Shown here piece after piece: positions 1-34,749 of a DNA stretch of 64,000 bases. The position numbers were made by a program, and so were the translations under genes. Location of the stretch: contig OZ038381.1 of NCBI GenBank assembly GCA_964036045.1, forward strand, positions 145,709,596-145,773,595, given 5' to 3'. Every line of letters begins with the position of its first letter. The stretch's first letter is position 1. Source of the DNA: Eutreptiella sp. 'Long Island Sound 2002' (taxonomy: Eukaryota; Euglenozoa; Euglenophyceae; Eutreptiales; Eutreptiaceae). The notes beneath the pieces were generated by a model that was not told the origin of the DNA, ran no database searches, and was given only the letters and a program-made list of their open reading frames with translations.

Positions 1-49
1 TGCGGGGCAGCTGCAAGATGGTGGCCTGAAAAAAACAAAAGAAACAAAA

Positions 50-245
50 AAAAAACACGCAATAACCCGCGCGATAACCCCCGCGATAACTAGGTTATCG
101 CGCGATAACCCCCGCGATAACCCCCCGCGATAACCCCGCGATAACTGGTTAGAACGCGATAACCTAGCGCGATAACTAGTTAGAGCACCTAGTTAGAACG
201 CGATAACCTAGCGCGATAACTAGTTAGAGCAGGGGTTAGAGCAGG
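50..245. repeat. Palindromic GCGATAACC tract, 3' side of the dioxygenase gene
   Basis: Tandem and inverted copies of a 9-10 bp motif (CGCGATAACC and its complement). They are arranged so that longer perfect palindromes such as GGTTATCGCGCGATAACC recur, mixed with GTTAGAGCA/GTTAGAACG variants. The same repeat family lies on the other side of the gene at 2447-2600, so the gene is bracketed by it. This suggests complex terminal inverted repeats of a mobile unit. The left limit is uncertain because the window starts here. Confidence 0.8.
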
Positions 246-261
246 GTGTTGTGGGAGGTTT

Positions 262-2391
262 TCACACCTGGTGACATGGACACATGCCTTGGCCCTCCTT
301 CTTGGCGTCGTCCAGCACCAGGCCCAGCCTCCGCAGCCACACGAAGTCCGTGACGGCCGCATACTCCCCCACCTGCCGCCACTCCACCACCTGGGCCACC
401 CCCTCCTGCTCAGGGGCCACCCTTGCCACTCCCCCATACAACCCCCTCCTCACCACCAAAATGGTGCCCGCCGGCACCTTCATCCCAACATGCCCTTGCA
501 AGGTGGGCCAGGGCAGTGCCTCCCCATGGCACACCTTGGCCAAGGGGCACTGATCGGGGTGGCCTGCGACCGCCCCCGCCTCCTCATTAGTGAGGGGGGC
601 AATCACCTCCCTCCCAACCCCCCACCCCGACAACAAAAAATGCCCTGTGGTTGTTCCCACCGGGAGCAAGCACTGAGCAGATTGCTCAATGCTGACCCCA
701 TTGGGGTCCACCACCACCTCCTCCTCCTCCCCCCCCTCCACCTCCTCCCCCTCCTGGCATGGCACAGAAAGGCCATCTTTGTGGGCGGTGCACAAAATCA
801 GCCGATTGCATCCGTAGCAATTGGCTACCACCTTCCCCCTACACCTAACCGCCCCATCACACTGGACTGTCCTGGCCACCCGGCCACCAGGTGCCCCCAG
901 CTGGGGCCTCTTAATGGACTGGGTCACGTGCAGGTTGGGGAATCGAAGATTCCCCCCCACGGTAAGCTCAATGGCAAAAAATGCCATGAGGCGGGGGTGG
1001 GACACCCCCGTGGGGGAGGCCTTGGGAATCCCCGACCCCCTGTGGACATCAAGGGCATTAAAAAAAAAGGCAGTGCCCCTCTTGAATGGCACAGCCCTCT
1101 CCACCCAAGGGTCAGGGAACCCCGAACTGCTGGAGGGCACAAAAAGAAAATGTGACCCATCCTCCTCCTCATGATTATGGGTTAGCATAATAAGGCAATT
1201 GACAATCAATGTGCCTTCAGGAATGGTGTAGGGGGGGGCGTCGCGATGGAGGTGCTGGGGGGTGTGGTCATAGCTCGAAATTTCGGCCATGTCAAGGATG
1301 GTGCAGCTCCATCCAACCCCCCCCACCACAGTCTTCTTCGCCGTCTCAAGCACACGATCTGCCACCCTTTTGAGGACTGGCAGATCATGGAGCTTGTGGG
1401 GGTTGTGCCTGTGGTGGTTGGTACCCCCATAGTTGCCGTACAATGTACGGCGGGTCCCAGAATCTTGGGGCCTGCCGACAATGGGGGGGTTCTCATTGAA
1501 AATGGGTGCCTTCTCTGAGAGAGGCACCCTATCCAAATCATCCAAAAGACTTTGGAGCTGCCCATCACTCAAAAAATCGTGCTCCAGGAGGTGGTTGACC
1601 ACCAGCTTCCCCCCCACCGTGAGCACAAGGTCATTGGGGTCCCTATTAAAGGCCCCCAAGGGCTCGGCGGCAACCACCTCCTCCGCCTCCCCAATAAGGG
1701 GGGGTGTTGCCCCAAATGGAAAAAGAATCACCCCCTGCCCCGAAACAATGTTGGGAGTGGTGACCCCATACCACTCACGCTCCCACTCCCTTGTGGGGCA
1801 AAGGGAGTGCATGGGGAGCTTGTTTTCGGGGTCGTCAGTGCAGACCCGGCGGGTGTTGTGGGTGAGGGGTTGGGGGAACCAACCATCCGACTGCCCCTTC
1901 CCCTTACCCTGTCGGATCCTTACCTTCTGGACACTAATCATGAGGGGGTTGTGGGGCTTCTCCTTCCTCCCCCCAGCCCCCACCCCCCCCGCATCCTCCT
2001 CCTCCTCCTCCACTTCCTCCACTTCCTCCTCCTCCTGACCCACATAGAGGGTCGTCTTCGTCCCCGCACCCTTCTCGGCATGGGCGGTGACGGACTCCAC
2101 CACCGCGTCCACATCGTCCGGATGAAGCTGGATCAAAAATCCAGCAACCCCTGGATTTACCTCTAGCAACTCGAAGATGTAGTTGCTGAGAACCAGGGGG
2201 TCTCGGTCGTCCGCCATGAAGGGGGACTTATGGACAAGGAGTCCAAAGTCCACAGCATGTTCAAAGCGGGTCGCCACAGGGCGCCTCACATTGGCATCAC
2301 CCATCGTAAACCCCTCAGGACCGCCAAGGCGACGGACCCCAAGGAGCTTTTGATGGTGCTCGCACCAAGCGTGGGCAGCAGCAAGGGCCAT
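262..2391 (-). CDS. 2-oxoglutarate/Fe(II) dioxygenase-like protein with Cys/His cluster
   Basis: A 709-codon frame read from the first ATG (2391); a TTG lies two codons upstream. Around residues 360-475 it shows the double-stranded beta-helix signature of Fe(II)/2-oxoglutarate oxygenases: an HRD iron-binding pair (H382, D384), a distal histidine in VHRGSG (H450) and a likely 2-oxoglutarate-binding arginine in HPRLMAFF (R467). Residues ~511-545 hold a C-x5-C-x7-C-x2-C-x5-C-x2-H-x7-C cluster that probably binds zinc. Acidic low-complexity stretches lie near 122-133 and 549-560. The substrate is not evident; nucleic acid is possible, since TET/JBP-type members of the fold travel with transposons in fungi, but I see no TET-specific signature. 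Palindromic tracts bracket the gene and a truncated inverted copy sits at 5790-6095, so it belongs to a mobile or duplicated unit. No frameshift or internal stop is visible. Confidence 0.72.
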   Translation of the reverse strand: MALAAAHAWCEHHQKLLGVRRLGGPEGFTMGDANVRRPVATRFEHAVDFGLLVHKSPFMADDRDPLVLSNYIFELLEVNPGVAGFLIQLHPDDVDAVVESVTAHAEKGAGTKTTLYVGQEEEEVEEVEEEEEDAGGVGAGGRKEKPHNPLMISVQKVRIRQGKGKGQSDGWFPQPLTHNTRRVCTDDPENKLPMHSLCPTREWEREWYGVTTPNIVSGQGVILFPFGATPPLIGEAEEVVAAEPLGAFNRDPNDLVLTVGGKLVVNHLLEHDFLSDGQLQSLLDDLDRVPLSEKAPIFNENPPIVGRPQDSGTRRTLYGNYGGTNHHRHNPHKLHDLPVLKRVADRVLETAKKTVVGGVGWSCTILDMAEISSYDHTPQHLHRDAPPYTIPEGTLIVNCLIMLTHNHEEEDGSHFLFVPSSSSGFPDPWVERAVPFKRGTAFFFNALDVHRGSGIPKASPTGVSHPRLMAFFAIELTVGGNLRFPNLHVTQSIKRPQLGAPGGRVARTVQCDGAVRCRGKVVANCYGCNRLILCTAHKDGLSVPCQEGEEVEGGEEEEVVVDPNGVSIEQSAQCLLPVGTTTGHFLLSGWGVGREVIAPLTNEEAGAVAGHPDQCPLAKVCHGEALPWPTLQGHVGMKVPAGTILVVRRGLYGGVARVAPEQEGVAQVVEWRQVGEYAAVTDFVWLRRLGLVLDDAKKEGQGMCPCHQV

Positions 2392-2780
2392 TATCAAAGA
2401 ATACGAAGGCTTTGAGAGCTAAAGCGAAAAGGGGAAACATAAAATGAAGCGCGATAACCCACGCGATAACCCACGCGATAACTAGTTATCGCGCGATAAC
2501 CCCCGCGATAACCCCCGCGATAACTAGGTTATCGCGCGATAACCCACGCGATAACTAGTGCTCTAACCCCGTTCTAACCCCGCGATAACTAGTTAGAGCA
2601 CACAAAGATCAAATCGCAAAAAGTGCAAAACGGGCAATATCGAGCAAACAATACATGGAAGGCACATTGTTGCATCATAGTGCACCCATGTAACATGTGA
2701 AATTCCGGGTTCCAACCATATTAACAACACCCAAAATTGGGGGGGTTCCGCACCACGCCCTAGAACGCTGCATCCCATGG
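2391..2780 (-). repeat. Inverted-repeat arm carrying the dioxygenase 5' flank
   Basis: Read on the minus strand, this segment closely matches 5400-5790 on the plus strand, including the palindromic tract and the gene's start. The two arms face each other across a 2.6-kb spacer that holds a TIR element. The match stops abruptly near 2780/5400. Confidence 0.85.
2447..2600. repeat. Palindromic GCGATAACC tract upstream of the dioxygenase gene
   Basis: Same repeat family as 50-245. It contains the 20-bp perfect palindrome CGCGATAACTAGTTATCGCG and the 18-bp palindrome GGTTATCGCGCGATAACC. It lies 50-200 bp upstream of the gene's ATG, so it covers the likely promoter. Confidence 0.8.
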
Positions 2781-2895
2781 GTCTCGGGGCCGTTTTGGGC
2801 AAAAAAAGGCTGTTTTGGGGCACAAAATGCTGTGTTTTGGGAGGGCACCTCCCGACTTGGCGCCCCCGCCCCGGGGCGCCACCGGTGAAATCCAC
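2755..2895 (-). repeat. Dispersed repeat module R1, copy 1
   Basis: On the minus strand this begins with CACCGGTGGCG and runs through a GC-rich box and then a motif with repeated CCCAAAA blocks. A similar module occurs at 9230-9370 on the plus strand. No coding content is apparent. Confidence 0.6.
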
Positions 2896-3425
2896 TCCAC
2901 TCCAATGACCTTATCCCTAGGGACTTTATACAGGAAACGTGACATGATAACAATTCTACCCCTCACATTTCTTGGCCAAGAAATGTTATCATGTCACGTT
3001 TCTCTATATCCGTTATCGAAGTCTCACAATTTCTCGACGAAGAAATGTAATCGCCGACCCCGCATGGCGAAACCCGCATTTCAAAGACATCAACATCAAG
3101 AGGGATCAACAATTCAATTGAGCTGCGAAATGTCATCGTTTCATGTGGCACCCCGCACAAGTGGAGGCGGAATGGCTACCACATGGCTACTACCTCTTAG
3201 CCATAAATAAGGAAGGACTACGGGTTCATGGTGCAACTTTCGCAAATCCATGAGCCATGCCGAGGCACTTGAGTCAACTTGGCACACCGAAGGTGGTAGG
3301 CACGGCATGCATCACATGACACCGGCTGAAGAGCAATGGTGTCGCGTTTTTGGGGGATCACCGCATCACACATGTAGCATAAACTTGGTTCTTAGGGAAG
3401 AGTTGAGGACGAAGACACGGACTGA

Positions 3426-4062
3426 TCACAACAAAGCAAAAGCGAACAAATCAGTGAAGCATGTTGAGGTCTGAGACAACAACGTTAGGTACATATCTTC
3501 AAACACTTGATTGTTTGCTGCACCCTCCTCACTTGGTGGGGCTGCAAAAGCTGCTTCACGATATGCATCCTGACCTTCTGCACGTGAGGAAAAGACATCC
3601 CCCGTTTTAGACAATTCTGTCTATCAATCTCACACAGGCAGCAGGCACTGGATCGTCAGTGGATTGGGCTGGGGGGAACTCTTCATATTCATTTGCGTCA
3701 TCTACTGATGAGGAAACAATAGAAGTATTCAACAAATCGCAAGAATGTGAGCTTAGCGAATGATCATCCGAGATAGTATATGCACTTAGTTGACGATTGT
3801 CCATTTTGGGTGGTGACTCTGGTTCCACTTTAATGGGTGAGTCTTTCTTTTGTGGTTTTGGGCAAGGTTCCGCTTTGCCTTTCGGTTTGGGGTATGGTTC
3901 CGCTTTGATTTCTTCCTCCACATCATGTTTGCTCAAGAGCATTGCTGCTTTTGATTTCACTTGCTTACCCTTTGGGTGATATTCACCAAGTGTTCTCGCA
4001 ACCACACCAACATGCTTTCCCCCCCATTTGATCCTCATTAGGGAACGTTGCACAACACGCAA
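3426..4062 (-). pseudogene. Decayed HTH/PHD-family gene, PHD finger lost
   Basis: Two minus-strand frames (3607-4062 and 3426-3614) match successive parts of the gene at 6399-7233: KHVGV...RTL, GKQVKSKAAMLLSKH, repeated AEPCPKP units, EEFPP and EYRDAAFAAP-like segments, then NQVFEDM. The frames are separated by extra sequence and a stop near 3607. After FEDM the sequence diverges and the PHD finger of the other copy is missing. The N-terminus is cut by the insertion at 4064. The first frame has no ATG start, so I treat the whole as a pseudogene. Confidence 0.65.
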
Positions 4063-4063
4063 C

Positions 4064-4804
4064 GTTACTCAGGTAACACCAGACCTTGACCCCCTACCCC
4101 CCCTCTCCTTGTTACTCAAAAATGGTCGGCAACCATGCAAAAATACGTGGCACCGGGTAAAAGTGTGTACACAATGCAAAAGCAAAACGAGCAAAAGGCT
4201 CAACAGTGTTTTTCAGAACATAACCTGCAGATCACAGTCAAGCAGTGCAGAGGATGAAGCTTGTCTACCGTCCATAGATCCTGCTTATCGGCTTTCGCCT
4301 AAACTCTTAACAAAGCATATGCATTTCTGGTTGTTTCACATGTCATGGTGCCCACCCTGCCCTGCCCATTGACGTCCCTGCTCATACCACTTCTTTACGG
4401 TATGCAACGGGATGATATGCAACATGTTTCATGCCTTAAATCTTACCCTGATGTGCATCCACCACCATGCCCATTTGTACGCCTTGAAGCCACAACCTTG
4501 TACAATACAGCGGACATTCGCCTCTAGGGACCCAGGAGACCCATGCAGGTGGAACGTTTTCTGTGTGAGTGCCGGTATCATGGACTGGAGCACTGGCGGA
4601 CAGTTTGGGGACCACGGGTCAGGCCAGCGCTGCCACAGTCTGACAGCTGGCCCCCCACCACTGCAAATTGTGACACCCTTGATACACATGTCAATGGAGG
4701 GAGAGGTCAGCAGGCGGGTGTCGCACCAATCCGCCGTTACTCCTGTGACATTGTTTCTCAAGGGATGGTTGGACCCCCCCCCCCCCCTATTTCACCCGAG
4801 TAAC
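4064..4804. mobile_element. Small TIR insertion inside the B-prime gene
   Basis: The ends pair as GTTACTCAGGTAA (left) and the complement of TTCACCCGAGTAAC (right), each followed internally by C-rich runs. Homology between the two HTH/PHD genes stops at the left end, which fits an insertion into the gene's 5' part. No coding frame inside resembles a transposase, so it is MITE-like. The target duplication is not clear. Confidence 0.45.
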
Positions 4805-4979
4805 ATAAGATGCCGTGAAACATTCCCTTATCGGAATCATGCCCAAACATGTTGCTACTCACATTTCTTCGCCAAGAAATGTTATCTACTCGCATTTCTT
4901 TGCCAAGAAACGTTATCAGCCAGCGGGGTCGGTGATCACATTTCTTCGTCGAGAAATTGTGAGACCGATAATGGATATA

Positions 4980-5399
4980 ATGCATGCATGCATGCAACTG
5001 CCCACACCCCCTTGCTAGGGAGGCCGTTGGGCGATAGACAAAGGGTCTTACAACCCAAAAAGGGAAGGAGGCTTGTACATGTGCATACCAGCCATAGTGA
5101 TTGAAAAGAGCCAAGGGTAGAATGGTGATGCTCCCCATAAAGCAGAACAAGTGTGAGCACTCACTGCCATATGCCGCGTGGAAAACAAACGGGGCAAAAC
5201 GTAGTTACACCAATGGTTTCCGGTGCACTGGGTCCCTGCAGCCCACAAATGCACCACAAATGATAATTTGGGACCTCGACATCCCAAATACAACAATTGG
5301 CCACCCATTCGTGATACTCAATGCCCTTATACTCCATGTGTCCAAAAACACATGTCCCACCCACCCGCAGTTCAGTACAACCGCCAAACAAGGCGATAC
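4980..5399. other. Spacer without recognisable gene
   Basis: It begins with a (GCAT)n-like run just outside the TIR element and continues as non-repetitive sequence up to the inverted-repeat arm. The open frames here are short and unlike any family I know. Confidence 0.5.
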
Positions 5400-5790
5400 C
5401 TATGGGATGCAGCGTTCTAGGGCGTGGTGCGGAACCCCCCCAATTTTGGGTGTTGTTAATATGGTTGGAACCCGGAATTTCACATGTTACATGGGTGCAC
5501 TATGATGCAACAATGTGCCTTCCATGTTTCGTTTGCTCGATATTGCCCGTTTTGCACTTTTTGCGATTTGATCTTTGTGTGCTCTAACTAGTTATCGCGG
5601 GGTTAGAACGGGGTTAGAGCACTAGTTATCGCGTGGGTTATCGCGCGATAACCTAGTTATCGCGGGGGTTATCGCGGGGGTTATCGCGCGATAACCTAGT
5701 TATCGCGGGGGTTATCGCGTGGGTTATCGCGCTTCATTTTATGTTTCCCCTTTTCGCTTTAGCTCTCAAAGCTTTCATATCCTTTGATAA
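5400..5790 (+). repeat. Inverted-repeat arm, second copy of dioxygenase 5' flank
   Basis: Mirror copy of 2391-2780. It contains the palindromic tract at 5585-5740 and leads directly into a second copy of the dioxygenase start codon. The near identity of the arms suggests a recent duplication or gene conversion. Confidence 0.85.
5585..5740. repeat. Palindromic GCGATAACC tract, third copy
   Basis: Same family as 50-245 and 2447-2600, in mirror order relative to the latter. It includes two GGTTATCGCGCGATAACC palindromes spaced by GGGGGTTATCGC units. Confidence 0.8.
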
Positions 5791-6095
5791 TGGCCCTTGC
5801 TGCTGCCCACGCTTGGTGCGAGCACCATCAAAAGCTCCTTGGGGTCCGTCGCCTTGGCGGTCCTGAGGGGTTTACGATGGGTGATGCCAATGTGAGGCGC
5901 CCTGTGGCGACCCGCTTTGAACATTATAATGGTGTGGACTTTGGACTCCTTGTCCATAAGTCCCCCTTCATGGCGGACAAGCGAGACCCCCTGGTTCTCA
6001 GCAACTACATCTTCGAGTTGCTAGAGGTAATACAGTTCTTCAAGAACATCGCCGCACTATTGCAGTCGGCAACAAGTGGCGAAGTACCTATGTAA
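5790..6095 (+). pseudogene. 5' fragment of the dioxygenase gene
   Basis: From the ATG at 5790 the first ~80 codons match the N-terminus of the gene at 262-2391, with an 8-9 bp insertion near 5927 (extra residues YNG replacing A) and few substitutions. Homology ends abruptly at the codons for LLEV (about 6027). The frame then runs into unrelated sequence and stops at 6095. The catalytic region is absent, so this is a truncated copy that keeps its upstream region. Confidence 0.8.
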
Positions 6096-6204
6096 TACTT
6101 GACCAATGTGTTGGTTCTTCAAGTATTGTAGATGAGGGGCTGGTATGATGTATCTGGTGTTCCTGAATGGTAGTACTAGGTGTAAGGCACTAATATTCGT
6201 GAAT

Positions 6205-7447
6205 TATATCCGCTCTCGGTCTCACAATTTCTTTGCAAAGAAATGCTATCGCCAACCCTCCTGGCGATAGCATTTCTTTGCAAAGAAACGCTAAGGGGTA
6301 GCATTTCTTCGCAAAGAAATGTTAGGCGATAGCATTTCTTCGCAAAGAAATGTTAGTGTGCATTTTATTCCCTCTGTGTTTACTAGAATAGCACAACAAT
6401 GTCCAAGAGGTTGACTTTCAAATCTATTGCACGACGGGTGGTGTTCACCAAACTTGCAAATACAGATGAGATTACTTTGCATGATGCCGCAAAGCATGTT
6501 GGCGTGCAGCCTAGGACACTAAATGAGGATCACCAAACAGGCAAACAGGTGAAATCCAAAGCAGCAATGCTCTTGAGCAAACACAATGTGGCAAAAGAGG
6601 AGGAGCAACGCAAAGCAGAACCGTGCCCCAAACCAGAGATGAAAGCCGAACCTTGCCCAAAACCACCACAGAATCCTTCACCAATGAAAGTGAAACTTGA
6701 GTCTCCCCAAGAGATGGACAATCGTCCAGTAAGTATTTATTTATACTATCTCTGATGATGATTTGCTGAGCTCACATTCTTGCGATGTGTTGAATGCTTC
6801 TATGGTTTCCTCGGAGCGTTCCTTCGGAGATGAAGCAAATGAGTATGAAGAGTTTCCTCCGACTCAATTGTCTGAGAAGGGGGATGTGTTTGCCTCACTT
6901 GCAGAAGGTATCAACGAATATCGTGATGCAGCTTTTGCCGCCCCACTTAATAGTGAGGAGGGTGCCGCACATTGACACAATCAGGTGTTTGAAGACATGC
7001 CTAGCCCCTTCACAGCAGCAAAGCAGCCTAACAAGGCCCCATGTAGACCCAAGGTGGAACCAAGTGTATGCTATATGTGTGATGAGCCGATCCCTAGGAA
7101 ACGTGACACTATTGCTCTTCAACCGGTGTCATGTGATGCATGCCGTGCAACCTACCACCTTCGGTGTGCCAAGTTGACTCGAGTGCCTCGTCATGGGTCA
7201 TGGATTTGTGAAAGCTGCACCATGACGCCGTAGTTCTTCCCTATTTATGGCTAAGAGGTAGTAGCCATGTGGTAGCCATTCCGCCTCCGAATGTGCGGGG
7301 TGCCACAACAAACAGTGCCGTTTCGCAACTCAACTTGACTTCTTTACCCCTCTTGATGTCAATGTCTTGGGAATGCGGGTTTTGCCATGGAGGGTCGGCG
7401 ATAGCATTTCTTTGCAAAGAAATTGTGAGACTTCGATAGCGGATATA
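6205..7447 (+). mobile_element. TIR element carrying an HTH/PHD-family gene, copy B
   Basis: The terminal inverted repeats are ~50 bp: 6205-6254 against 7394-7447. Both begin TATATCCGCT and run through TCTCACAATTTCTTTGCAAAGAAATG to GCTATCGCC. Inside the left end, three or four more 20-bp palindromes of the form CATTTCTTNGCAAAGAAATG follow one another (6255-6345). The right end is followed by a short GAAACGCTA hairpin. The only gene inside is the HTH/PHD-family pseudogene, with no transposase. It is oriented opposite to the relative at 3005-4979. Confidence 0.75.
6399..7233 (+). pseudogene. HTH-like plus PHD-finger gene, frameshifted
   Basis: It starts at ATG 6399. The N-terminus contains a helix-turn-helix-like stretch (LHDAAKHVGVQPRTL, residues ~28-42), loosely like RWP-RK or transposase DNA-binding helices. 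A Lys/Pro-rich linker with AEPCPKP repeats follows. A ~4-bp insertion near 6735 shifts the frame relative to the copy at 3426-4062. The second frame (6763-6975) continues through EEFPP and NEYRDAAFAAP and meets an in-frame TGA at 6973-6975. The same frame resumes and ends in a canonical C4HC3 PHD finger (6985-7233: CYMC, CDAC, YHLRC, WICESC), normally a reader of histone H3 tails. Splicing the GTAAGT...AG segment at 6730 does not restore the frame, so decay is the simpler reading. Confidence 0.65.
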
Positions 7448-7670
7448 GTGAAACGCTACCCGATAGCGTTTCCTGTATAATATGATCTCTCTTGCACACC
7501 GTGGCTCATTCCTCAAGGACACATTGTACGTGACCCACAATTTGATGGAGTATAGTGCTGTCCCAACAAATCTGTCCATCCCCAAGGTGGCAAAAAAAGA
7601 TGTGGCCACCCGTTTTGCACCTATCAAGACGGCTCCCAGGCCTAGCGGTGGACATTAGGCGTGTTAACAC
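7448..7670. other. Spacer without recognisable gene
   Basis: Sequence between the TIR element and the GTGTTAACAC repeats. I see no coding frame or repeat that I can name. Confidence 0.4.
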
Positions 7671-8276
7671 GGCCGGCCAACACAGAGGTAGAAAGTACCC
7701 CCCCACCCCCTCCTGTGTTGTGTTAACATAGGCCCAACACGGACCTGAAAAGTACCCCCCCCCCTCTGTCCACCCCATGGCAACACACGAACCCGAAGAT
7801 TTTGTGTTGTGTTGTGTTGTGTTGTGTTGTGTCATGTTGTGTTGTGTCATGTTGTGTTGGGTTGGGTTGCCCAACCCCACCAACCCAACCCAACCCAACC
7901 CAACCCAACAGGCTGCAAGGGCGAGCAAACACGTACAAGAACTCCTCAGACAGACATGACACAACACATGACAAAACACAACACAACACAACACAACACA
8001 ACACACAACACAACACAACACAACACAACACAACACAACAAAATAAAAAAGAAGAACACTGCACAAAATGACACAAGAAAAAAACCCAAAACAAAACAAG
8101 GAATGGCACAACACAACACAACACAACATAACACAACAACACGTACCACAACACACCACCTATTGGACGTGTTAACACGGCCCCAACACAGGCGGTGAAA
8201 AGTACCCCCCCACCCCCTCATGTGTTGTGTTAACACAAGCCCAACACAGACCTGAAAAGTACCCCCCCTCCCCCCC
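7671..8276. repeat. Pentanucleotide satellite palindrome flanked by ~105-bp direct repeats
   Basis: The core holds (GTTGT)n at 7802-7865, (CCAAC)n to about 7912 and (CACAA)n at 7960-8040 and 8107-8150. The two halves are complementary and could fold into a long hairpin. On each side sits a ~105-bp unit (7671-7775 and 8169-8276) made of two ~55-bp subunits. Each subunit begins with GTGTTAACAC or a close variant and ends with AAAGTACCCCCC. The long open frames here on both strands are repeat artefacts. Confidence 0.8.
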
Positions 8277-8572
8277 CTGCCTATTGCTCGGTGTTCAACT
8301 CTTTAGGATGAAGAAGGGCCTCTGCTCACAGAAATGCTAATTGAAACCCTTTGACCACTTTGTGTTTGTCTGGGCTACTCATGCACGGTGTGCACAGTGC
8401 GAGCGTGCAGTGCGTTTCAGCCCTAGCAATCCTGTCTTCCCGTATTCCTTGTCTATAACCCTTGCGGCATGTCTTCAGGCACAAGAGGGCATGAAAAACA
8501 CATGCAAACAGCTATTGGCATAGTACAATGGTACCAATGAATGTAGCCCAAAAGTGCTTATAGGTCCAAGTT
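8277..8572. other. Spacer without recognisable gene
   Basis: No convincing frame or repeat is visible in this stretch. Confidence 0.35.
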
Positions 8573-9225
8573 TTGGCTCAAAACTTGGATTTGGCAAGGC
8601 CACCACCTAGGGAATAAATAGGATGGCTAGATTAGAGAAGGATCCGAGGCGATGGAAGGGAGAAACGCCAAAATGGAGGCGTGACGTGCTTGCTTGCTTG
8701 CCTGTTGCTTGTTGTTAGCTAAATTTAAGGGGAGAGGGGTGTAGTAATATGTGTGTGTGTGTACAACGCAATGCCAAAGGCAACAAAGGCTCAACAGATG
8801 TCACACAGACATTAACCTGACAAATCAAGTTGATTCATGCAGTTGTTTTCACACATCACTTTTTCAAACAACGGCAAATTGTTCATTGACGTCCGTGTGT
8901 GCGTGCACCCTCCTCCCCTCCCTATTAATAGATTTAGGGTGATGGCCTTTCCGTTGGCAACCCAGCCCTTCAGTGCTCTGTATTCACATAGGCCTCCAAG
9001 CCCGAGTGCTTGTAGTCGTCTCCTCTCCCCCCTCCCCTTAAATCTAGCTAACAACAAGCAAGCAACAAGCAGGCAAGCAAGCAACAAGCAAGCAAGCAAG
9101 CAACACTTCTCCTTTCCGTTTTGGCCATTACTCTGTTCCACCGCTTTGGGCTCTACTCTACTCTGGCCATCTCATACCCTTAGTAAGACCCGGTGGTGGA
9201 CTTTCCAAATCCAAGTTTTGAGCCA
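8573..9225. mobile_element. Foldback element with (GCTT)n-containing arms
   Basis: The arm at 8573-8740 pairs with the complement of 9020-9225. The outer ends share GGCTCAAAACTTGGATTTGG. The inner parts share runs of GCTTGCTTGC followed by TTGTTAGCTA and ATTTAAGGGGAG. The arms are clearly homologous but diverged. The short loop carries no convincing gene, so this is a non-autonomous foldback or MITE-like element. Confidence 0.6.
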
Positions 9226-9229
9226 AAAA

Positions 9230-9370
9230 CTCACCGGTGGCGGCTCGGGGCAGGGGCGCCAGGTCGGGAGGTGTTCTTCCAAAAATGCGCGTGTTGTGCC
9301 CAAAAACAACCATTTTTGGCCCAAAACGGCCCCGAAACCCACTCAAAACGGCCACATGAAGGGAAACGGT
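9230..9370 (+). repeat. Dispersed repeat module R1, copy 2
   Basis: It begins CACCGGTGGCGGC and runs through GGGGCGCCAGGTCGGGAGGTG into CCCAAAA-rich sequence. It is similar to the complement of 2755-2895 and directly abuts the foldback element. Confidence 0.6.
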
Positions 9371-9729
9371 TGCTACACTCCACGTGCGCCTCGATTGCCT
9401 GGTAACCAAGAGCCCTTTGTTGCCCTCGACATGTCCACAATTCGTCCGAGAAACGGCCCAAAAAAGGCTAGAAATGGCCTAAATGTGCGCCATTTGTCTC
9501 AAACAGCCCCAAAACCAAGAATGGGCTTATCTTGGGCTGCGTGGCTCAAAACCAAATTCCGAGGGCACCTAGTCCACCCGTAAGCCCCCACTTTTTGTGG
9601 TTTCCAAGCCTCGGAATCGCCCAACGAGACGCCTAGACCCCCGTAGCAGTGGTCACTTGGTGGAGCCGGAGGGCAGCCCGGCCTACGCATGGTGGGGGCC
9701 AACGGGGGGTCCACCAAGGTCCCCGAGGC
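9371..9729. other. Spacer without recognisable gene
   Basis: Sequence between module R1 and the tandem array, with no named feature recognised. Confidence 0.35.
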
Positions 9730-10470
9730 GAAAAGAAGAGTTTTTCCAAAGTTGTTCCTAGACCACTTGTGATGCTCAAACAAGCCGGTTTTCAGCCCGC
9801 GGTGACGCGTTTTTGACCCATGGACAATCCCAAAATGCCTTGAAAATGGGCTGTTTCGGGACCACAAATGGATCAAAAATGGGTCAAAAACAAGTCAAAA
9901 GTGATCTGGGGCCACGTGGGATGCTCATTCAAATGTTTTTGGCCCATTTTGAGCTTGTGGTGACGCGTTTTGGCCCATGGAAAATGCCAAAATGCCTTGA
10001 AAATGGGCCGCTTTGGGAGCAAAAATGGCTCAAAAATGGGTCAAAAATGCGTTTTTCCAAAAGTGATCCTTGGGATGCTCAAACAAGTGTTTTTATTAAT
10101 TATTAATATTATTAATAGCCCATTTCGAGCCCGTGGTAACACGTTTTGAGCCATGGAAAATTTCTAAATGCCTTGAAAATGGCCCTTTTGAGACCAAAAA
10201 TGGGTCAAAAATGGGTCAAAAACACGTTCTTCCAAAATTGATCTTGGACCATGTGGGGTGCTCAAACAAGTGTTTTTAGCCAATTTTGAGCCAATGCTGC
10301 AGCTGACGTGTTTTGGCCCATGGAAAATCCCATAATGCCTTGAAAATGGGCCGTTTTGGGACCACAAATGGGTCAACAATGGGTCAAAAACGCATTTTTC
10401 CAAAAGTGATCCTAGACCATTTGGGGTGCACAAACAAGTGAAATGAGCCCATTTTGAGCCCATTTTGAGC
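9730..10470. repeat. Tandem array of a ~170-bp unit, about four copies
   Basis: The unit contains GACGCGTTTTGGCCCATGG, then ATGCCTTGAAAATGGGC, AATGGGTCAAAAATGGG and GATGCTCAAACAAGTG. Units begin near 9803, 9959, 10133 and 10304, a spacing of 156-174 bp. Copies differ by substitutions and small indels. No coding role is evident. Confidence 0.75.
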
Positions 10471-10544
10471 AAGTTTAGCCCCTTCCGCCACTTGTATGCA
10501 CCAAGTTGTACACTTCGCAGGTACCTTAGAATTGTATGGTGGAG

Positions 10545-10640
10545 TCACCTAGAGTTGGGGAGAGGGGTGTAGATTAGAGGATATATATTACTACACCCCT
10601 ATCCCCTTAAATCTCGCTAAAAAGCAAGCAACAAGCAACA
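10545..10640. repeat. Third copy of the foldback element terminus
   Basis: ACTACACCCCTATCCCCTTAAATC and the following GCAAGCAACAAGC run match, inverted, the segment at 8685-8745. The pair could define a composite unit of about 2 kb (8690-10640) that encloses module R1 and the 170-bp array. Confidence 0.5.
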
Positions 10641-10990
10641 AGTTCCATGCACGTTTCCAACGTTATTCGCTCTTAGATGCCTCATGCCGCAAAGGTTCTT
10701 TGTCACTTGCAAGGTAAATTTGGGAACTTTACCCCTTAGGTCTTCGCAATATTCCACACAAAAGCATAAGGACATTAAGACACCCTTGAATTGTGGCCAG
10801 AAAATTGCATTCTTTCCGGTAAAGAGCTTTATTGTCCTCCGTCAAGCACACATTCCAAAGTGTGATTGTTGGTTACGATGATGTTCATGATATAAAATTG
10901 GAAAACTTCATCACTTTGCGCCGTTGGTTGATGAACGAAGTGAAGCTTTTTGCGAGGAGTTGCGTGCTTTCTCACTTGAGTGTAACTTCT
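10641..10990. other. Spacer without recognisable gene
   Basis: Short open frames only, none resembling a known family. Confidence 0.35.
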
Positions 10991-11405
10991 TAGGGCCTTT
11001 GATTGCCACATGCTCCCAAAGGACATCCATGGTTTGTCTCAAACTTGTGCAACGTCATGCCTCAGTCATTCTATGCGGTGACGAAGGCACTTGCGAGGAC
11101 ACCCGGTGGTTGAAAGAACCATTCGTCGCCGAGTTATGTTTCGTCGTCAATCTACTCGAGGAACAATCTACTCGAGGAACAAAGCAAAGTACTTGGACGT
11201 TGGTTGTAATCTGCGTTCTAAGGTTTACACCAATATGGGGCTACATGCACATCCCAACGGAAAGAGGAAAAGATGACACTGAAACCATGTTCTTCTTTGC
11301 ACTTGCGTGCTCCTAACTTGCCACGAGGTGTGACAAAACTCACCGCGTGCGACACAAAGATGCATGTCCAGTTTGCAATAGAGGCCTTACAATGCGTGAT
11401 ACCAT
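10991..11405 (+). repeat. Inverted-repeat arm, left
   Basis: It matches the minus strand of 13555-13975 over about 415 bp, from AGGGCCTTTGATTGCCACATG to TACAATGCGTGATACCAT. I judge the identity high but clearly below that of the 2391/5790 pair. Both arms could encode a peptide ending MGLHAHPNGKRKR, but no intact gene spans either arm. Confidence 0.75.
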
Positions 11406-12355
11406 GGCGATGTTCCGGGCCCGGTAGCTCGGAAAATGTGCAGTAGGCATTTGTCCGAATTGACGAATACTAATGGCCTTCCCATACCTGTCCTTTTTCA
11501 TTATCCTTGCTTTCCAACAATGTGGCCCAAAATACCATGAGTTATATTTCAAATTTTGGATGGTACTTGTAGTAAAGCAAGCACGCATAGGGATGACAGG
11601 CAAGTGCATAGGATAGGCTTGAGGTGCCAATACGACATGTCGCGCACTAAAACCATGTAAGTAACAAGGCAACAACAGGTAGGCAACAACAATAGTAATA
11701 CGCTTTAAGTGCTTTCAGAGCGGGTCGCAGGCAAAACTAGTTTTCCCCAATTCAAGTAGGGGAGGTAGCGGACAACCCAACATATTAATAATGCAAGCGG
11801 TAGCACGCACCACTTTCAGTTTGCAACGCACCACCCACAATAGACGGCTCGGATGGCATTCACTACAACTAAGGAACGACGCTCAAAGCGAAGCACAAAG
11901 GAGATGGTGAACGGTCCAAGTGCCCCCCAATGGTGACACATTGCGTAACTTCCAAATCACTCTACGGATTCCATGCACGTGTGACCCATGTGCAGTACCA
12001 TTTGGCTACTTACCGAGACCATGCAATGTATGCATGACCACAACACACACATTGCAATTTTAAGATGCCCGATGCCAGGCAACATCATCCACATACACCA
12101 ATCAACTGCACCCCGTGTGGGTTGGCACTGTGCTCCCAGCAACCAAAGCTCGCGGCCAAAGGAATGGATTTTCCGTCACAAACGGGCAGCTTGGCCAGTA
12201 CCAGAGCCTTGGGCAAGCATTCTTTGACAAGAGTGACAAAAAAAGCAACGCTTCCAAAGTCTTCTTTGACAATCAAAAAGTGTTGGCAAACTATCAAAAA
12301 TCATCACTGGAACGTAGGCGGAAACTTTGATGCCCAGCCAGCCTGCACCTAAGTT
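11406..12355. other. Inter-arm region with no recognised gene
   Basis: Short frames only. A 12115-12330 plus-strand frame is lysine- and glutamine-rich and could be the remnant 5' part of the neighbouring PHD-family gene, but I see no clear motif match. Confidence 0.3.
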
Positions 12356-12492
12356 AAAAACGGGTTAATAGCCCGTTTTATTTGGCTGAAAAACGGGTTA
12401 ACCTGTCCACAGTTTTGGCAGGATTTAACCCGTTTTCCTCAATGAAAACGGGCTATTAACCCGTTTTTCTAGAAAGAAACGGGTTAACCCCA
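12356..12492. repeat. Hairpin cluster (ACGGG...CCCGT), left of the PHD-family gene
   Basis: Repeated inverted units with stem AAAACGGG/CCCGTTTT and loop CTATTAA or TTAATAG (core ACGGGCTATTAACCCGT). Neighbouring units are themselves in inverted order. The cluster ends a few bases before the ATG at 12499. Confidence 0.8.
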
Positions 12493-12498
12493 AATTTT

Positions 12499-13041
12499 AT
12501 GGGCTTATGGGTGGAGGCCCCTCCTCACCCTGCTCCCGTGGCCGATTTGAGCCGTGAACCGGTGGAGGCTCCTCCTCACCCTGCTCCCGTGGCCGATTCG
12601 AGCCCTGCAAAGCTTAGTGTGACATCCTCCCAATCAGGTGGCTCTGTTGACTTGCTTGCTGGTGGTAGAAGTGAGTCTAGTGAGTCGGTGTGGGACTATG
12701 ACGAGCGACCCTTGACACAGGTGTCCCTGAAGCGCTCTTTGGAGGATAGTCGCCAAGAGTATAGGGATGCACCTCCCACCGCAGCTAATGCTCCCATTTC
12801 CCAAGATCTCTCGGATATGCCTTTCCAAAAGATGCGGCGACCAAAGTGTCCGCCTGCGGTTAGGCAAGTGGCATCCGAGTTCATTTGTCATAAGTGCTCC
12901 CGAGAGATCAATGTGTGGTGTCCTTTGCGACGGCAGCATGATGTCTTTTGTGTGATGTGTAATGCTCCGTACCATGAAGCTTGCATGGGCGAGGGTGCCA
13001 AAGATGGCTCCATGCGTGGCCCTTGTTGCCCCAAGGAGTAG
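12499..13041 (+). CDS. PHD-like zinc-finger protein (family of 6399-7233)
   Basis: A 180-codon ATG frame with no internal stop. The N-terminus has two near-identical PP(H)PAPVAD-type repeats (residues ~6-35). A Ser/Gly-rich acidic middle follows, then QEYRDAPPTAANAP (~85-98), which matches the EYRDAAFAAP block of the TIR-element genes. The C-terminus (~128-180) is a PHD-like finger: CHKC, CVMC, YHEAC, then GPCC. The last metal-ligand pair is compressed (CC where CxxC is expected), so folding may be altered. Hairpin clusters flank the gene on both sides and a larger inverted repeat flanks the whole, as for its relatives. The protein may be only the C-terminal part of a longer ancestor. Confidence 0.55.
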   Translation: MGLWVEAPPHPAPVADLSREPVEAPPHPAPVADSSPAKLSVTSSQSGGSVDLLAGGRSESSESVWDYDERPLTQVSLKRSLEDSRQEYRDAPPTAANAPISQDLSDMPFQKMRRPKCPPAVRQVASEFICHKCSREINVWCPLRRQHDVFCVMCNAPYHEACMGEGAKDGSMRGPCCPKE

Positions 13042-13361
13042 ATCATAATTATTGTGCACTATTATTAATAATGTACACTCGGATTCGAAGGACAAATCAA
13101 AACAAACTAACATTATACTATTATACTATTATACTATTATAAACGCTAATGAAAGGTGACCACTCGAAACTATCCTGTCTCGTGTATGTACAGTGGAGGC
13201 GTTTTTCCCCATGCCAGTGGTAGGGTTTTTTATCACGTCATCCAACATTTCACATGCGGTACTTTCGTTTTTTCCTTGCCTCTCCTCCATGTGTCAACTG
13301 GAACCTGCACCGGTCGCCGGGAGGTTTGCACAAGTGTCCCAAGAACCTAACGTCGGTCTGG
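13042..13361. other. 3' flank of the PHD-family gene
   Basis: AT-rich sequence with a short TATACTATTA repeat near 13110-13140. No further gene is recognised. Confidence 0.4.
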
Positions 13362-13530
13362 TTAACCCGTTTTTCAGCCAAATAAAACGGGCTATAATAA
13401 CCCGTTTTTAGGAAAAACGGGCTATTAACCCGTTTTCCTCAATGAAAACGGGCTAAGGTGCTTACGCACCTTTTACAGCCCGTTTTCATTGAGGAAAACG
13501 GGTTAATAGCCCGTTTTCATAATAAAAATC
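13362..13530. repeat. Hairpin cluster (ACGGG...CCCGT), right of the PHD-family gene
   Basis: Same hairpin family as 12356-12492, with at least four units. A central palindrome (AAGGTGCTTACGCACCTT) is flanked by mirror-image copies of GAAAACGGG units. The cluster lies immediately inside the right inverted-repeat arm. Confidence 0.8.
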
Positions 13531-13554
13531 ACCAATAAGTGGTGGTAGTAATGG

Positions 13555-13975
13555 TATCACGCATTGTAAGCACTCTATTGCAACCTTGGGATGCATCGTG
13601 GTGCCTCGCGGGGCTTAGGTTTGGGACACGTCCTGGCAAGTTACGTATACGCAAGTCTCAAAAAGAACGTGGTTTCAGTGCCATCTTTTCCTTTTTCCAT
13701 TGGGATGTGCATGAAGCCCCATATTGATGTAAACCTTAGAACGCCGATTGCATCCAACTTCCAAGTACTTTGCTTTGTTCCTCGAGTAGATTGTTCCCCG
13801 AGTAAATTGACGACCAAACACATGTTGATGACTCGGCGACGAATGGTTCCTTCAACCACCGGGTGTTCTCCAGAGTTCCTTGGTTGCTGAATGAAACGAC
13901 CGAAGCATGACGTTGCACAAGTTTGAGACAAACCATGGATGTCCCTTGGGAGCATGTGGCAATCAAAGGCCCTGG
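13555..13975 (-). repeat. Inverted-repeat arm, right
   Basis: Counterpart of 10991-11405. Together the arms enclose about 2.1 kb containing the PHD-family gene and its hairpin clusters. Confidence 0.75.
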
Positions 13976-16900
13976 AAGAAAGGCATAACAAGAACTACAC
14001 CAAGGAAAAGGAAGGTTGGAAGTGGGGTTGGTGGGGGGGCCGCAGAGGGATATGTGGGGCTACATGACCACCTATCGGACTATGCAACCCCTATAGCAAC
14101 CCGTTGGGCACCCTTTGACCACCCAAACACTTCAAGTGGGCATGGTACGCGCACAAGCAAAGCGGTGCAATCGAGCCAAAGTTGGGTTAACGTGTTAAGC
14201 TAAAATGACCAGTTATTGTTACAATGAGGCCAACGATTTAGCGATGGGCCTGGCGCCTGCAAGTACTGCTGGATGGTAAATTTGAAAAGTGAGGTAGATC
14301 AACAGTGAAAGCTGTGATTTTACATCTATCCTTACTTGCAATTCATTAATGGTTGGCTTTCTGCCGGGCACCGGAATGGCACTGGATTTAGCGCGGTGAC
14401 CAGTCCCGAGCCAGGCAAGAAAAGGTGTTTTACGCTGTTCTTAAGGATTTCATCAAAACATTTTGCCTGCCAGGTGCCCTTCAAACATCATGGCTGCTAT
14501 GCAAACATTTAGATGCGGGGGGCGACGGGTCGTGCAAAGGCTGGCTCATGGAGGTCACCTCAACGGAGCGAAGGAGGCCTCGACGGCCTCAGCAGCAGCC
14601 AAGCAAGCCAAGGAAACGAAAGGTGGAGAAGACGAAAAATCTGCATCTCTGCCCTCCTGACATCCTACACCAAGTCGGGGGGTATTGTAAGTATGTATCA
14701 GTGTACTGCATGTAAGTAAAATGGCTGCAGATAACGTGTGAAATATGCAGTGAACATACGTAAAGTGGCATGAGAACTGCCATGGTACACCAGCTGCACC
14801 AACTCGAAAAAATACCTCACAAAAAGTGTCTTGTCCCACACAAAAATGACACGAAAATACAACTCTGTGGAATCCTTGAAACCGAAGTCGGGAGCTTTGA
14901 TGTCGGTGCTGAAGGTGCTTGTAGAAAGATGGTACTGTTTGGGCGTCATCGGGGGACATTGGCTGTCCAAGGGACAAATGCAGTGAGGGTAGACAAAAAT
15001 ACAGTATCTACAAAGATACTTCTTTGATTCTAACTGTCACTCAACATGCACAATCCTTCAGCCAATCCAGACTGCAATCGCCGCACCTGACGTGCACGCC
15101 AAGACGATGGCGGGAAAAACTCTCTACCGAAAATCAGTAGGGGGGTAATCTCAAGAGGTGCCAAATCCAAGGGCGGGCCAACCAAGGCGTGGCCGTGGCT
15201 CAAGGGCAAAAGTGGTCGTAACCCTGGCAACTCTGTTCGCACCTCACGAGCCTTACATACTGCGGATGACGGCGCCAGCAGTCACCATATGCCCCGCTTA
15301 CAATCTAAGCTCAAAGGTCGACGGGAGGTAGAGATGTCCCTGGATGTCTAAAACTTCAGTGCCCCCTTCCGTCTTGCGCCCGGACTGCGTCGCCTTATCT
15401 GCTGTCGGGTGCTGAGTTATTGGGGCGATCCGGCCTCCACACCTCGCGTCACCATCGGCGATAACTTGTCGACTGGGGCATGCAGCCAGAGCCGCCAAAT
15501 AACCCTAAAAAACTGATATAAACCACAAAACTTCAAGCAAATGAATTCACGGCGGAATTTCACTTTCACGGGGCGCCCCGGCAACCGTTACAGCCGAGTC
15601 AGTATGGGTAGGCGGCGGATACCATACTTTGGGGTTGGCGTAAGAGATATTTACCATGTCTAGTCACATCCAAAAAATTTGGCACCAGGATACCGCCAAA
15701 AGTCAACCTAAAAGGCCGGACAGCTCACCTCCCTTGACGGAGGCACAAAAGACATCGCATCCGAACTTGATCCCATTAGATCTAAGCGGCCGAAGCGGTC
15801 ATCAAAAAGCGATCAGCTCCCGAGAATAACGCGGCCGAAAAGGGACACACCCAACAGCTCGCGCAAAGAAAAAACAGTCACAACAGCCACAGGAGCTGAA
15901 GTGAGCACCGCATTGAACAGCCGAAACAACCGTTTCGAATTGACGTGAAGAAAACCCGTTAGGGGGAGAAGAAAAGGTAGATTTGCTTGTGTTTTCTGAT
16001 AGGCAAAGGGCCCTGCCCAGTGAACTCAAAGGTCTAATGGGACTGGCTAGCCATCGCTGGCTTTCCCCACAATTTTTTCCCACCCACCCTGAATCTAACC
16101 GGAGTGCTAAACTCACCACACCCACAACGCTGCCCAAACGTAGCCTCGAAAGGCTCCAGAGAAAAACTGATATTGACGGACACTCTCCTCACACGCTTGC
16201 CGACAGTCGTTCCAAAGACTTGGAACTCTAGGGGTGGTGCAAGTGGCGAGTTACGGGCTGTGGTTGCCTATCATGGGGAGGTGTCGCCATGCGGCAAGCC
16301 CTAGTCTAGGACTGGCGCACCCCAGGCAGGTGGGGGGGTGGGTTGGGGCGAGGCGAAACGAGGGACGGGATCCCGCCCAAAGATTGTCGGGCTGCATCAA
16401 AGGCATGTGGATCACGTCAACGGTCTCGTTCAGCTGCATGGTTAGGGGCGGCGGGAAAGGAAACCCTGAGGCGCACATCTCGGTCATGAAGAACAAGTCG
16501 ATGTTGGACCGTTTGGGGGTGACTATCTTCATGGCGGTAGTTGCGGGGTGCTTGCTGTTCCCAGACGATGCGTGGATGGGGGATGACTTTCCCATAAGGC
16601 TCGTCGGGGGTAGACTTCCCCGGGACGGAGGTGATGGAGGTGTTAACTTCCCCTTTGACGTTGGTGGCTAGGCCGCATGTTTGAGTCGACGGCCTCCTTT
16701 GGGGTTGGCCCTGGGCCCTAAGGGCATGAGGGCCCTCGGATTCTCGGACGTCTCGATATCGTCGTTCTGCCCTGCTGTCCACGGCCTTCTCCTCTGGATG
16801 CTGTGCAGCTGGTGCCGCGCAGTGCCACTCAATGCCACGGGGGAAAGGGTCGAGCACGTACACGGGGTTGTGCATGCTCGCCTACCTACACCACACACTC

Positions 16901-19985: not shown

Positions 19986-20220
19986 GCTGAAACTTAGGGG
20001 GTTGGCTGAAAATCAGAACTGATTTCTGAAAAGAAAAGCGAGATGCAGAAATGCATGATGCGATGATGCTGATCATGGCCTGTGGAGGGGGTTTTTTTCT
20101 GATGTCCCCACCAACCCAGCTCAGAACTCCCCAAAATCTCTGATTAGGGTGTCCGTCCATAGTTTTGGAACCAAAGAACAAGGCTGAGCTCCAAACTCCA
20201 CAAAACAGTGGATTTAGCTT
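19986..20220. other. Left flank of element 1
   Basis: No gene seen. The bases just before the LTR (GATTTAGCTT) do not match those after the 3' LTR (GGCACCCC), so no target duplication is recognised. Confidence 0.4.
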
Positions 20221-22549: not shown

Positions 22550-22550
22550 A

Positions 22551-22562
22551 TGGTAGCAGAGG
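22551..22562 (+). promoter_or_regulatory. Element 1 primer-binding site
   Basis: TGGTAGCAGAGG, one base after the LTR. It is complementary to a tRNA 3' end CCTCTGCTACCA, the form seen in many eukaryotic initiator-Met tRNAs. The same 12 bases serve elements 2 and 3. Confidence 0.85.
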
Positions 22563-22746
22563 AGTACCTGCCCCCTACCGCCGCACCGGGGACTTGGGCC
22601 CTCATGAGCCGTGCCCAAGGACGCCCCAGGTGCAGATCGTGGAGTCCGTCGAGTCGACGCCGGACTGGGAAGCCCGAGAAGAGCGAAGATGCTCAGAACG
22701 GAGAGCCCTTGCAGGACATGGGCTGGACATGTAGGACCTGGCCTCC

Positions 22747-29900: not shown

Positions 29901-30611
29901 CATGACCTTCCGGGGCCCACTGGACTGTCGCCCCATCGCATCCTGTTCCTACGAGATCGAGTGTCACGCACTCTCCCGTGGTTGAACCATGGCAAGGTGG
30001 CCCGAGATGCGAGTGCCATGATGGCTGAGGCGGATGACACAGCGGCCAAGGTGTGCAAGGCACTTCAGGACGAGCATGACAAGAGGGCCAAGTACTTCAA
30101 GCAGGGGAAAGTCCACAAATATGCTCTCCAAGACAACGTATGGGTAGAGCGGCACCACAAGGATGTCCTGTCCAGGCATCGGCAGGCGTCTTGGTATGTG
30201 CCGGGGATAATCGTGCGGAAGGTCGGGCAGGATGTGTATGCGGTTCGTGTGGGGGATAACAAGATCCTGGACCGCGACCATACCCAGCTTCGTCCCCGAG
30301 CACCAGACCCCAGCGGACGTCCCGTCACCTTCGAGTTCACGGCCGGCGATGTGGACTCGGACGACGAGGGTGAGGACGACGACTTCACTGACGAGAGGAT
30401 CCTGACGGACAAGCCGGACCCGGGGACGCCTGGGGGGAGGCTTTATAAAGTCTGTTGGAAGGGATTCGCCGCATCCAGGGACTCGTGGGAGCCTCCGAGC
30501 AGCTTTGTGCCGAGGTACACCACGGTCTGGATGGAGTATCTGAAGGAAAAGAACATTTCTTTGGATGTCAAGGACGTGTTGGTCCATCTGGTGGCTGCAG
30601 TAGCACCGTAA
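26988..30611 (+). pseudogene. Element 1 RT, RNase H, integrase and chromodomain; one nonsense codon
   Basis: RT: WMLVVDYRGLNEQ, FTVLDLKHGYHQM, PMGAKNGNAAFQ and a catalytic FVDD box (27969-27980) where YxDD is usual. RNase H follows with RTDALDYAVGAVL (~28460) and VCTDHQSLQSWHKE. The integrase has an HHCC zinc module (MHPGRDKM ... CSDCAVC) and the DDE triad in SVAMDVLAM (~29460), ICSDRGSHF (~29690) and SNGRAEVAG (~29800). A TGA at 29865-29867 replaces a probable Trp codon and cuts the frame. The same frame then runs to 30611 through the C-terminal integrase region and a chromodomain (RLYKVCWKGF ... DSWEPPSSF, ~30430-30520). A chromodomain usually steers integration to marked chromatin. Confidence 0.85.
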
Positions 30612-30993
30612 TGGATCCCCCTTGGCATTTTTGTTTGTTTTTGTGCATGGGAGACGGGTGAGGGCGTTCATCCGGGGATTTTTGGGCCTTGATTGGCCAT
30701 ATACCCCCTTCACTCGATCTCCACATATATATTTCATTGTGGTATACTTATTTAGGTCGATCGACGACGTTTCTCTATCTTTGATCCCCTTGGTCCATGT
30801 TGTAGATCAAGAGAGACCAGATATGGCGTACGGCACCGATTATGAGTGTCCTCACCCCTCCCTTCGGGCATGGGGGACCCCTACGACATGTGTGGGGCCT
30901 CCATGTGTCCTTGGGACATGGGGGGGGGTGTGTGGAGCCCATTGGGGTCCTCCCGTCCTCTCTTCGATGACTTCCGAGCGGATACAACGCTCT

Positions 30994-31004
30994 GAGAAGG
31001 GGGG
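30994..31004 (+). promoter_or_regulatory. Element 1 polypurine tract
   Basis: GAGAAGGGGGG directly abuts the 3' LTR start (TGAAGCCGG). It is the expected primer for plus-strand synthesis. Confidence 0.8.

Positions 31005-33821: not shown

Positions 33822-34749
<928 letters not shown>

Follow-up and report, generated by a model that had tools for sequence, protein, structure and literature searches.

The 64-kb stretch of Eutreptiella sp. 'Long Island Sound 2002' DNA analysed here (C4:145709596-145773595, hereafter the window) holds palindrome-flanked genes in its first 14 kb, which are pieces of three families of DNA transposons, designated elements A, B and C. The main news is element A, a transposon whose transposase has a predicted RAG1 fold and which is accompanied by a constrained, PhyH-like 2-oxoglutarate (2OG)-Fe(II) oxygenase and by promoter-like palindrome arrays; to this comes B, a probable recombinase-PHD fusion element. 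The B and C families are related and carry a chromatin-reader-like finger or its remnant. A preliminary description, made from the letters alone, had seen an oxygenase gene, a helix-turn-helix (HTH)/PHD gene and a third PHD-like gene, each bracketed by its own palindromes and travelling as cargo of non-autonomous or foldback-type elements. In our comparison with the genome (2.28 Gb, 2205 contigs), all three palindrome families were present where they had been placed, and the existence of mobile elements with an oxygenase or a PHD protein was borne out by dispersed copies and their ends.

Element A and its transposase

The ends of element A were determined by comparing 20 stretches at the first listed sites of GGTTATCGCGCGATAACC with a further 15, including two from immediately upstream of the window. 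This sequence occurs at 2838 places genome-wide (none for the reversed-pattern control). The ends proved sharp and common to the compared copies, and the copy at the window edge begins 4,365 bases outside the window on its left and reaches position 2777. A 36-bp terminal inverted repeat (TIR), TGGGATGCAGCGTTCTAGGGCGTGGTGCGGAACCCC, is identical at both ends, with termini TGGG..CCCA, and has 962 and 945 exact matches in the genome (control, 0). Seven full-length copies share 94.3-99.6% identity; among the 33 end pairs closer than 15 kb, taken from the first 100 listed ends, nine measure 7.08-7.14 kb, 21 are shorter and three longer. A direct repeat flanks nine of ten TIR pairs, the longest match being 2 bp in eight and 4 bp in one C-rich site, after exclusion of one wrong pairing on the c10 contig from this count.

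The fourth open reading frame (ORF4) of A encodes 552 aa with a RAG1/Transib-type DDE layout. Its structure model matches the RAG1-type transposase core in Foldseek and VIA at modest confidence (mean pLDDT 59, pTM 0.54), and C274-x2-C277 and H470-x4-H475 fall between D260 and E495 (alignment A1; motif as defined in PMC12730594). In Pfam, ORF4 matched no family at E <= 5, the KDZ transposase included, an absence that is weak evidence. The transposase of A is thus predicted, from the model, to have a RAG1/Transib fold. With its very high copy number, its 36-bp TIRs, the 2-bp duplications of its target and this RAG1/Transib-type DDE ORF, A is a cut-and-paste DNA transposon. The earlier statement that no transposase is present holds for the in-window part of A only; the whole element has its own transposase gene.

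The oxygenase of element A

The best Pfam matches of ORF1 are PhyH (E 0.0061, 17.3 bits, cut-off 22) and 2OG-FeII_Oxy_3 (E 0.082), both sub-threshold, and Tet_JBP gave no match at E <= 1. Nothing was found in NCBIfam or among solved-structure sequences, and no relative was confirmed in IMG/VR, where own-genome records were possibly left out. A protein search with ORF1 returned 33 relatives, including 90%-clusters of 220 and 491 members. One protein, P0125, consists of the first ~165 residues of ORF4 followed by a second oxygenase with an HxD...H motif and a Cys-rich tail; this is a distant relative of ORF1 (27% identity over the aligned row), with the iron-motif residues common to both. In the genome, the best 75 of 4780 first-look candidates for this second type all gave matches, at 94-100% identity, and 61 of the 75 lack stops. 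Sixteen of them have one common score and frame length and 11 another, groups that point to recent spread under a best-candidate scoring that favours such near-identical copies.

Across the seven full A copies, which give 21 non-independent pairs, pN/pS was 0.46 for ORF1 (codon bootstrap 0.34-0.65), 0.54 for ORF4 (0.39-0.80), 0.61 for ORF2 (0.38-0.96) and 0.85 for ORF3 (0.45-2.10). Given the low value for ORF1 and its many copies, the oxygenase gene seems to be maintained by the element rather than captured by accident, and A appears, by sequence, to carry a PhyH-like 2OG-Fe(II) oxygenase as a constrained standing gene. By eye, ORF3 (L005:2290-2853) had also given the impression of a TET/JBP-like enzyme (TGGEFWVE...GERWSVIFYS), which we do not claim: it has no Pfam match, its HxD is not intact, and its pN/pS, with a wide range, indicates little constraint.

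Palindrome arrays

Perfect even palindromes of at least 14 bp number 17 across the window, of which ten lie within units A and B, two overlap in a TGCA run adjoining the B1 copy, one lies at 8225 and four beyond 44 kb; unit C holds none, its hairpins being imperfect. The window copy of A contains 39 GTTATCGC/GCGATAAC octamers, where 0.17 are expected from composition. They form four clusters (189-327, 2558-2707, 4887-5036 and 6833-6895 in element coordinates), and an identical four-cluster layout was seen in two other A copies scanned. Each of the first three clusters lies upstream of a gene: the first ends 59 bp from the ORF1 start codon, the second 240 bp from the first ATG of ORF2 and the third 65 bp from the ORF4 start codon. 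The oxygenase had seemed to be bracketed because arrays lie upstream of both ORF1 and ORF2; the palindromes of A are internal, and it is those of B and C that lie near the ends. In the copies examined, the palindromes are not a general satellite unconnected with the genes, since arrays occupy like element positions in the three A copies scanned.

That arrays recur upstream of genes suggests a promoter or operator function in A; the arrays of A, B and C are probably element-specific cis-regulatory arrays. The A palindrome is rich in CpG, a dinucleotide that is modestly depleted in the window (observed/expected 0.70, with TG at 1.24; 0.55 in element A). An Rfam scan of the window gave nothing at gathering scores.

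Elements B and C

Element B is dispersed (447 first-look candidates, 40 scored), with ends TATATCCG... and ...CCTGTATA and, close to or at these ends, ~60-bp inverted arms, in agreement with the TIRs of ~50-59 bp noted before. The arm pattern has 50 and 63 exact genome matches (control, 0); among 100 matches listed, 36 arm pairs lie less than 40 kb apart, 23 of them at 1.15-1.48 kb and two at 2265 bp. One of the latter, the 2.3-kb copy L050, contains a single 618-aa ORF (L050:232-2088). By eye, a core-binding-like region, a TG(F)Q box and RR...KHVG...Y follow one another in it; towards the C-terminus come an acidic linker and, last, a PHD finger. The finger (PF00628, cut-off 24) scores above the cut-off in B2 (27.6 bits) and in P0036 (24.4), and below it in P0038 (23.2) and L050 (21.4); all 35 listed matches of the protein to solved-structure sequences fall within residues 548-618, which is the PHD part. 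The integrase profile phrog_1 was matched weakly (E 0.12), NCBIfam gave two chance-level matches, and no DDE transposase family was matched. As judged from these profile matches, the whole B gene ends in a PHD finger, upstream of which the protein is most probably a Crypton-like tyrosine recombinase.

Of 71 scored candidates, five are full-length and stop-free, and two of these five show 78% identity; the remaining candidates are incomplete or disrupted, and many retain only the PHD end. The "HTH/PHD gene" of the window is thus a remnant left by internal deletions. Its PHD finger passes the Pfam cut-off in B2, and we read its "HTH" as the end of a putative recombinase domain. The finger does not travel as cargo: it closes a long ORF that belongs to the element itself and is whole in L050. 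Every right B end examined (11) and all but one of the 11 left ends carry TATA, a uniformity that would also fit fixed element sequence. A 5.28-kb stretch, L049, considered as a longer autonomous B, was found to be a B copy with another element nested inside. This nested element (L049:1046-4955) has a transposase-like ORF (1538-2284, minus strand) that is piggyBac-like by eye, with a Cys-rich C-terminus.

Element C is likewise dispersed (636 first-look candidates, 40 scored). Its ORF aligns with the C-terminal part of the B protein at a local score of 130 (500 shuffles: mean 35, maximum 64) and by itself reaches the cut-off of no Pfam family. The "third PHD-like gene" is thus homologous to a PHD-bearing protein without having a recognised finger itself, and from this homology and the missing Pfam match we regard C as what probably remains of another, diverged family of the B type. 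The window copies of B and C, rightly described as non-autonomous, are deletion derivatives of small single-gene elements. An outer inverted repeat (10987-11405 / 13551-13980) was rejected as the true end of C, whose copies stop near 12354 and 13528; this ~420-bp repeat, 81-88% complementary in pieces, encloses C and is not part of it.

Other features of the window

The features of the three elements are collected in Table 1. Elsewhere in the window, a Ty3-type long terminal repeat retrotransposon was recognised by eye at 20212-33340, with gag-like and pol ORFs at 22747-25416 and 26988-29867 and long, very similar direct repeats beginning near 20225 and 31007. Two more Ty3-type elements (42071-51199 and 54750-61620) were identified by eye only, with no search made; their integrase ends look chromodomain-like (RKRLLFKVRWEGY; FLTLWEGFG). 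Long GTTGT / ACAAC pentanucleotide arrays stand in inverted orientation at 7800-8160. A CCCCTTAAATCTAGCTAACAACAAGCAAGC-like motif, perhaps the end of a miniature inverted-repeat transposable element, recurs in both orientations at 8687-8739, 9027-9079 and 10574-10640. Four ~110-bp direct repeats, spaced 157-175 bp, lie at 9804-10413, and a long CT dinucleotide repeat at 33820-33960.

Table 1. Positions of elements A, B and C, their genes and their palindrome arrays (window coordinates unless a contig is given)
Feature	Position	Strand	Remarks
Element A, right part	1..2777	-	TIR pair, flanks TG / TG; rest outside the window
Whole A copy	G000:C4:145705231-145712372		7,142 bp; left 4,365 bp beyond the window edge
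Array between ORF1 and ORF2, 11 units	71..220	.	240 bp before first ORF2 ATG
ORF1 of A, 709 aa, PhyH-like 2OG-Fe(II) oxygenase (putative)	262..2391	-	HxD...H motif, Cys-rich C-terminal part
Array upstream of ORF1, 11 octamer units	2451..2589	.	59 bp before ORF1 ATG
Right TIR of A, 36 bp	2742..2777	.	Exact copies genome-wide
B1, diverged, rearranged B copy	2927..4979	-	TATA at both ends
A2, end fragment (628 bp) from another A copy	5403..6030	+	Inverted; has TIR and ORF1 start
B2, B copy	6205..7479	+	TATA at both ends; ~1.03 kb missing at window 6408 relative to L050
ATTTCTTTGCAAAGAAAT palindrome array	6227..6351	.	Upstream end of B2
B gene remnant in B2, broken frame	6399..7233	+	PHD finger (7006-7233), preceded by acidic linker and C-terminal end of recombinase-like domain
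Dispersed element C (1.17 kb)	12354..13528	+	Full-length copies span query 1371-1377 to 2547-2551
Left AAAACGGG...CCCGTTTT hairpin array of C	12357..12487	.	
ORF of C, 180 aa	12499..13041	+	Homologous to C-terminal part of B protein
Right hairpin array of C	13361..13520	.	

Model and alternative readings

Starting from the structure, copy number, ends, homology and constraint described above, we infer an anti-silencing role for the oxygenase, an operator function for the arrays and the recombinase identity of B. Since arrays of one motif lie upstream of ORF1, ORF2 and ORF4, these genes may be under joint control, in which one dimeric DNA-binding protein would act on all three through the arrays. 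The most likely role of the ORF1 oxygenase would be the oxidation of a silencing methyl group carried by DNA or by histones, through which element A would escape repression. The PHD finger of B would probably direct the recombinase, or the integration that it performs, towards a particular state of chromatin. Finger and oxygenase modules may in this way help the elements to cope with host silencing. Taken together, the combination of a transposon A with its oxygenase, B and C as deletion derivatives, cis-regulatory arrays, oxygenase-based anti-silencing and PHD-based targeting appears probable to us.

Several observations weigh against this account. The RAG1-fold model of ORF4 is modest and has no accompanying sequence match in Pfam, NCBIfam or PDB, and one of the ten A TIR pairs lacks a direct repeat. 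Because the PhyH match of ORF1 is sub-threshold and its structure model (pLDDT 28) shows no usable fold, its substrate and even its fold are unproven. As to constraint, the few, non-independent copy pairs behind pN/pS give bootstrap ranges for ORF1 and ORF4 that overlap those of ORF2 and ORF3, and the copies scored are the best ones, a bias toward open frames. For B, the tyrosine-recombinase reading draws on motifs seen by eye and the weak phrog_1 match, the Pfam matches were limited to PHD/C1-type and chance ones, and in L050 Gln seems to stand in place of the first Arg of the catalytic R-H-R-Y tetrad.

The competing explanation that fares best takes the arrays for subterminal binding sites of the transposase or recombinase, not for promoters, much as CACTA/EnSpm elements have transposase-bound subterminal repeat arrays. 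B and C do have subterminal arrays on both sides, and A has one near each end; however, A has two more arrays in its interior, one ahead of ORF2 and one ahead of ORF4, at ~2 kb or more from either end, and we consider this explanation possible but not the favoured one. Operator arrays remain our preferred interpretation for A.

B could instead be related to another superfamily that uses TA or TATA targets. Its ~60-bp inverted arms would fit such a relationship, as Cryptons are described without TIRs (PMC3212892), as would a TATA that is fixed sequence and the weakness of the recombinase motifs. The motifs of the 618-aa ORF nonetheless follow, by eye, the order of a tyrosine recombinase and no DDE transposase was matched, so that we think this unlikely and keep the Crypton-like assignment.

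A third possibility is that the oxygenase is a host-derived passenger, useless to the element. By Pfam it bears no TET/JBP or demethylase signature. 2OG enzymes act on many small-molecule substrates. The gene is nevertheless kept in very many copies, its constraint is about as strong as that of the transposase, and a diverged second high-copy oxygenase family is also present, all of which makes a mere passenger quite unlikely. Finally, the view of these units as foldback or palindrome-bounded non-autonomous elements holds in part for B and C, whose palindromes do lie close to the ends; as an account of the units it is very improbable, and for A it is ruled out by TIRs beyond the palindromes, 2-bp target duplications and the element's own transposase.

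A more far-reaching version of our model, which we rate as rather doubtful, would have two unrelated machineries within one genome each acquire a chromatin module, a new PhyH-like mark eraser beside the RAG1-fold DDE transposase and a PHD reader on the putative tyrosine recombinase, and each drive its genes from promoter arrays built of palindromes specific to the element; in A, the arrays, being rich in CpG, would then act as a methyl-sensitive switch held open by its own oxygenase. If true, A would protect itself by means of an oxygenase class for which erasure of marks on DNA or histones is not known.

Comparison with known systems

Transib and RAG elements make 5-bp target duplications and have CAC-type ends. 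Element A, in contrast, has 2-bp duplications and TGGG ends, its transposase shows 10-12% identity to Transib, RAG1 and ProtoRAG (BbRAGL), and no RAG2-like gene was recognised in the element.

According to Kojima (2025; PMC12730594), the source of the fungal comparisons that follow, fungal transposons of many lineages, including the RAG1-like ESTA and the related Plavaka, carry TET/JBP dioxygenases, for which an escape from methylation silencing has been proposed without experimental validation. The parallel with such transposons, suggested before, is a good one, except that the oxygenase of A is without a TET/JBP match, its best sub-threshold Pfam match being PhyH. ESTA and PlavakaB (CMCT) are, as predicted for A, RAG1/Transib-related DNA transposons with a 2OG-Fe(II)-type dioxygenase; such genes occur in several transposon lineages per genome, and an anti-silencing role has been proposed. 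A differs by its PhyH-like oxygenase, its TGGG...CCCA termini, 2-bp duplications not only of TA, and arrays upstream of genes. CMCT elements have target duplications of 2-5 bp, a length that agrees with A (at least 2 bp in nine of ten TIR pairs), and 5'-CA..TG-3' termini, which A lacks and which hold "in most cases", hence are not strictly defining. PlavakaA (CMCT) resembles A in its 2-bp target duplications and TG-starting termini (5'-TGT..ACA-3'), where A begins TGGGATGC, a likeness by description. A more specific link to KDZ transposons is not supported by the target duplications: Zisupton of KDZ is reported to make 8-bp ones, compared with 2 bp in eight of ten A pairs, 4 bp in one and none in one, and the A transposase is modelled on the RAG1/Transib fold.

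In Kojima and Jurka (2011; PMC3212892), Cryptons have short (4-6 bp) terminal direct repeats and are without TIRs. B is similarly a small, single-gene element with a recombinase-like ORF, short direct repeats (TATA) and non-autonomous derivatives; it differs in having a C-terminal PHD finger, inverted arms and palindrome arrays near its ends. Of the R-H-R-Y tetrad, B shows by eye candidate R-R, K-H and Y residues, the first R being read as Q. The term PHD does not occur in the available part of that paper's text, and the titles and abstract beginnings of open-licence literature yielded no PhyH-like oxygenase in a DNA transposon and no Crypton with a PHD finger.

Beyond the known fungal transposons with TET/JBP dioxygenases, element A thus presents a different oxygenase class in a RAG1-fold family, with ORF1 as a concrete enzyme to test. 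The PhyH-like class and the second, diverged oxygenase family in the same genome suggest that carriage of mark erasers may be a recurrent solution. In the whole B gene, a site-specific recombinase may have become naturally fused to a chromatin-reading PHD module, and the predicted RAG1-like transposase of A would add a 2-bp-duplication lineage to the relatives of the V(D)J recombinase.
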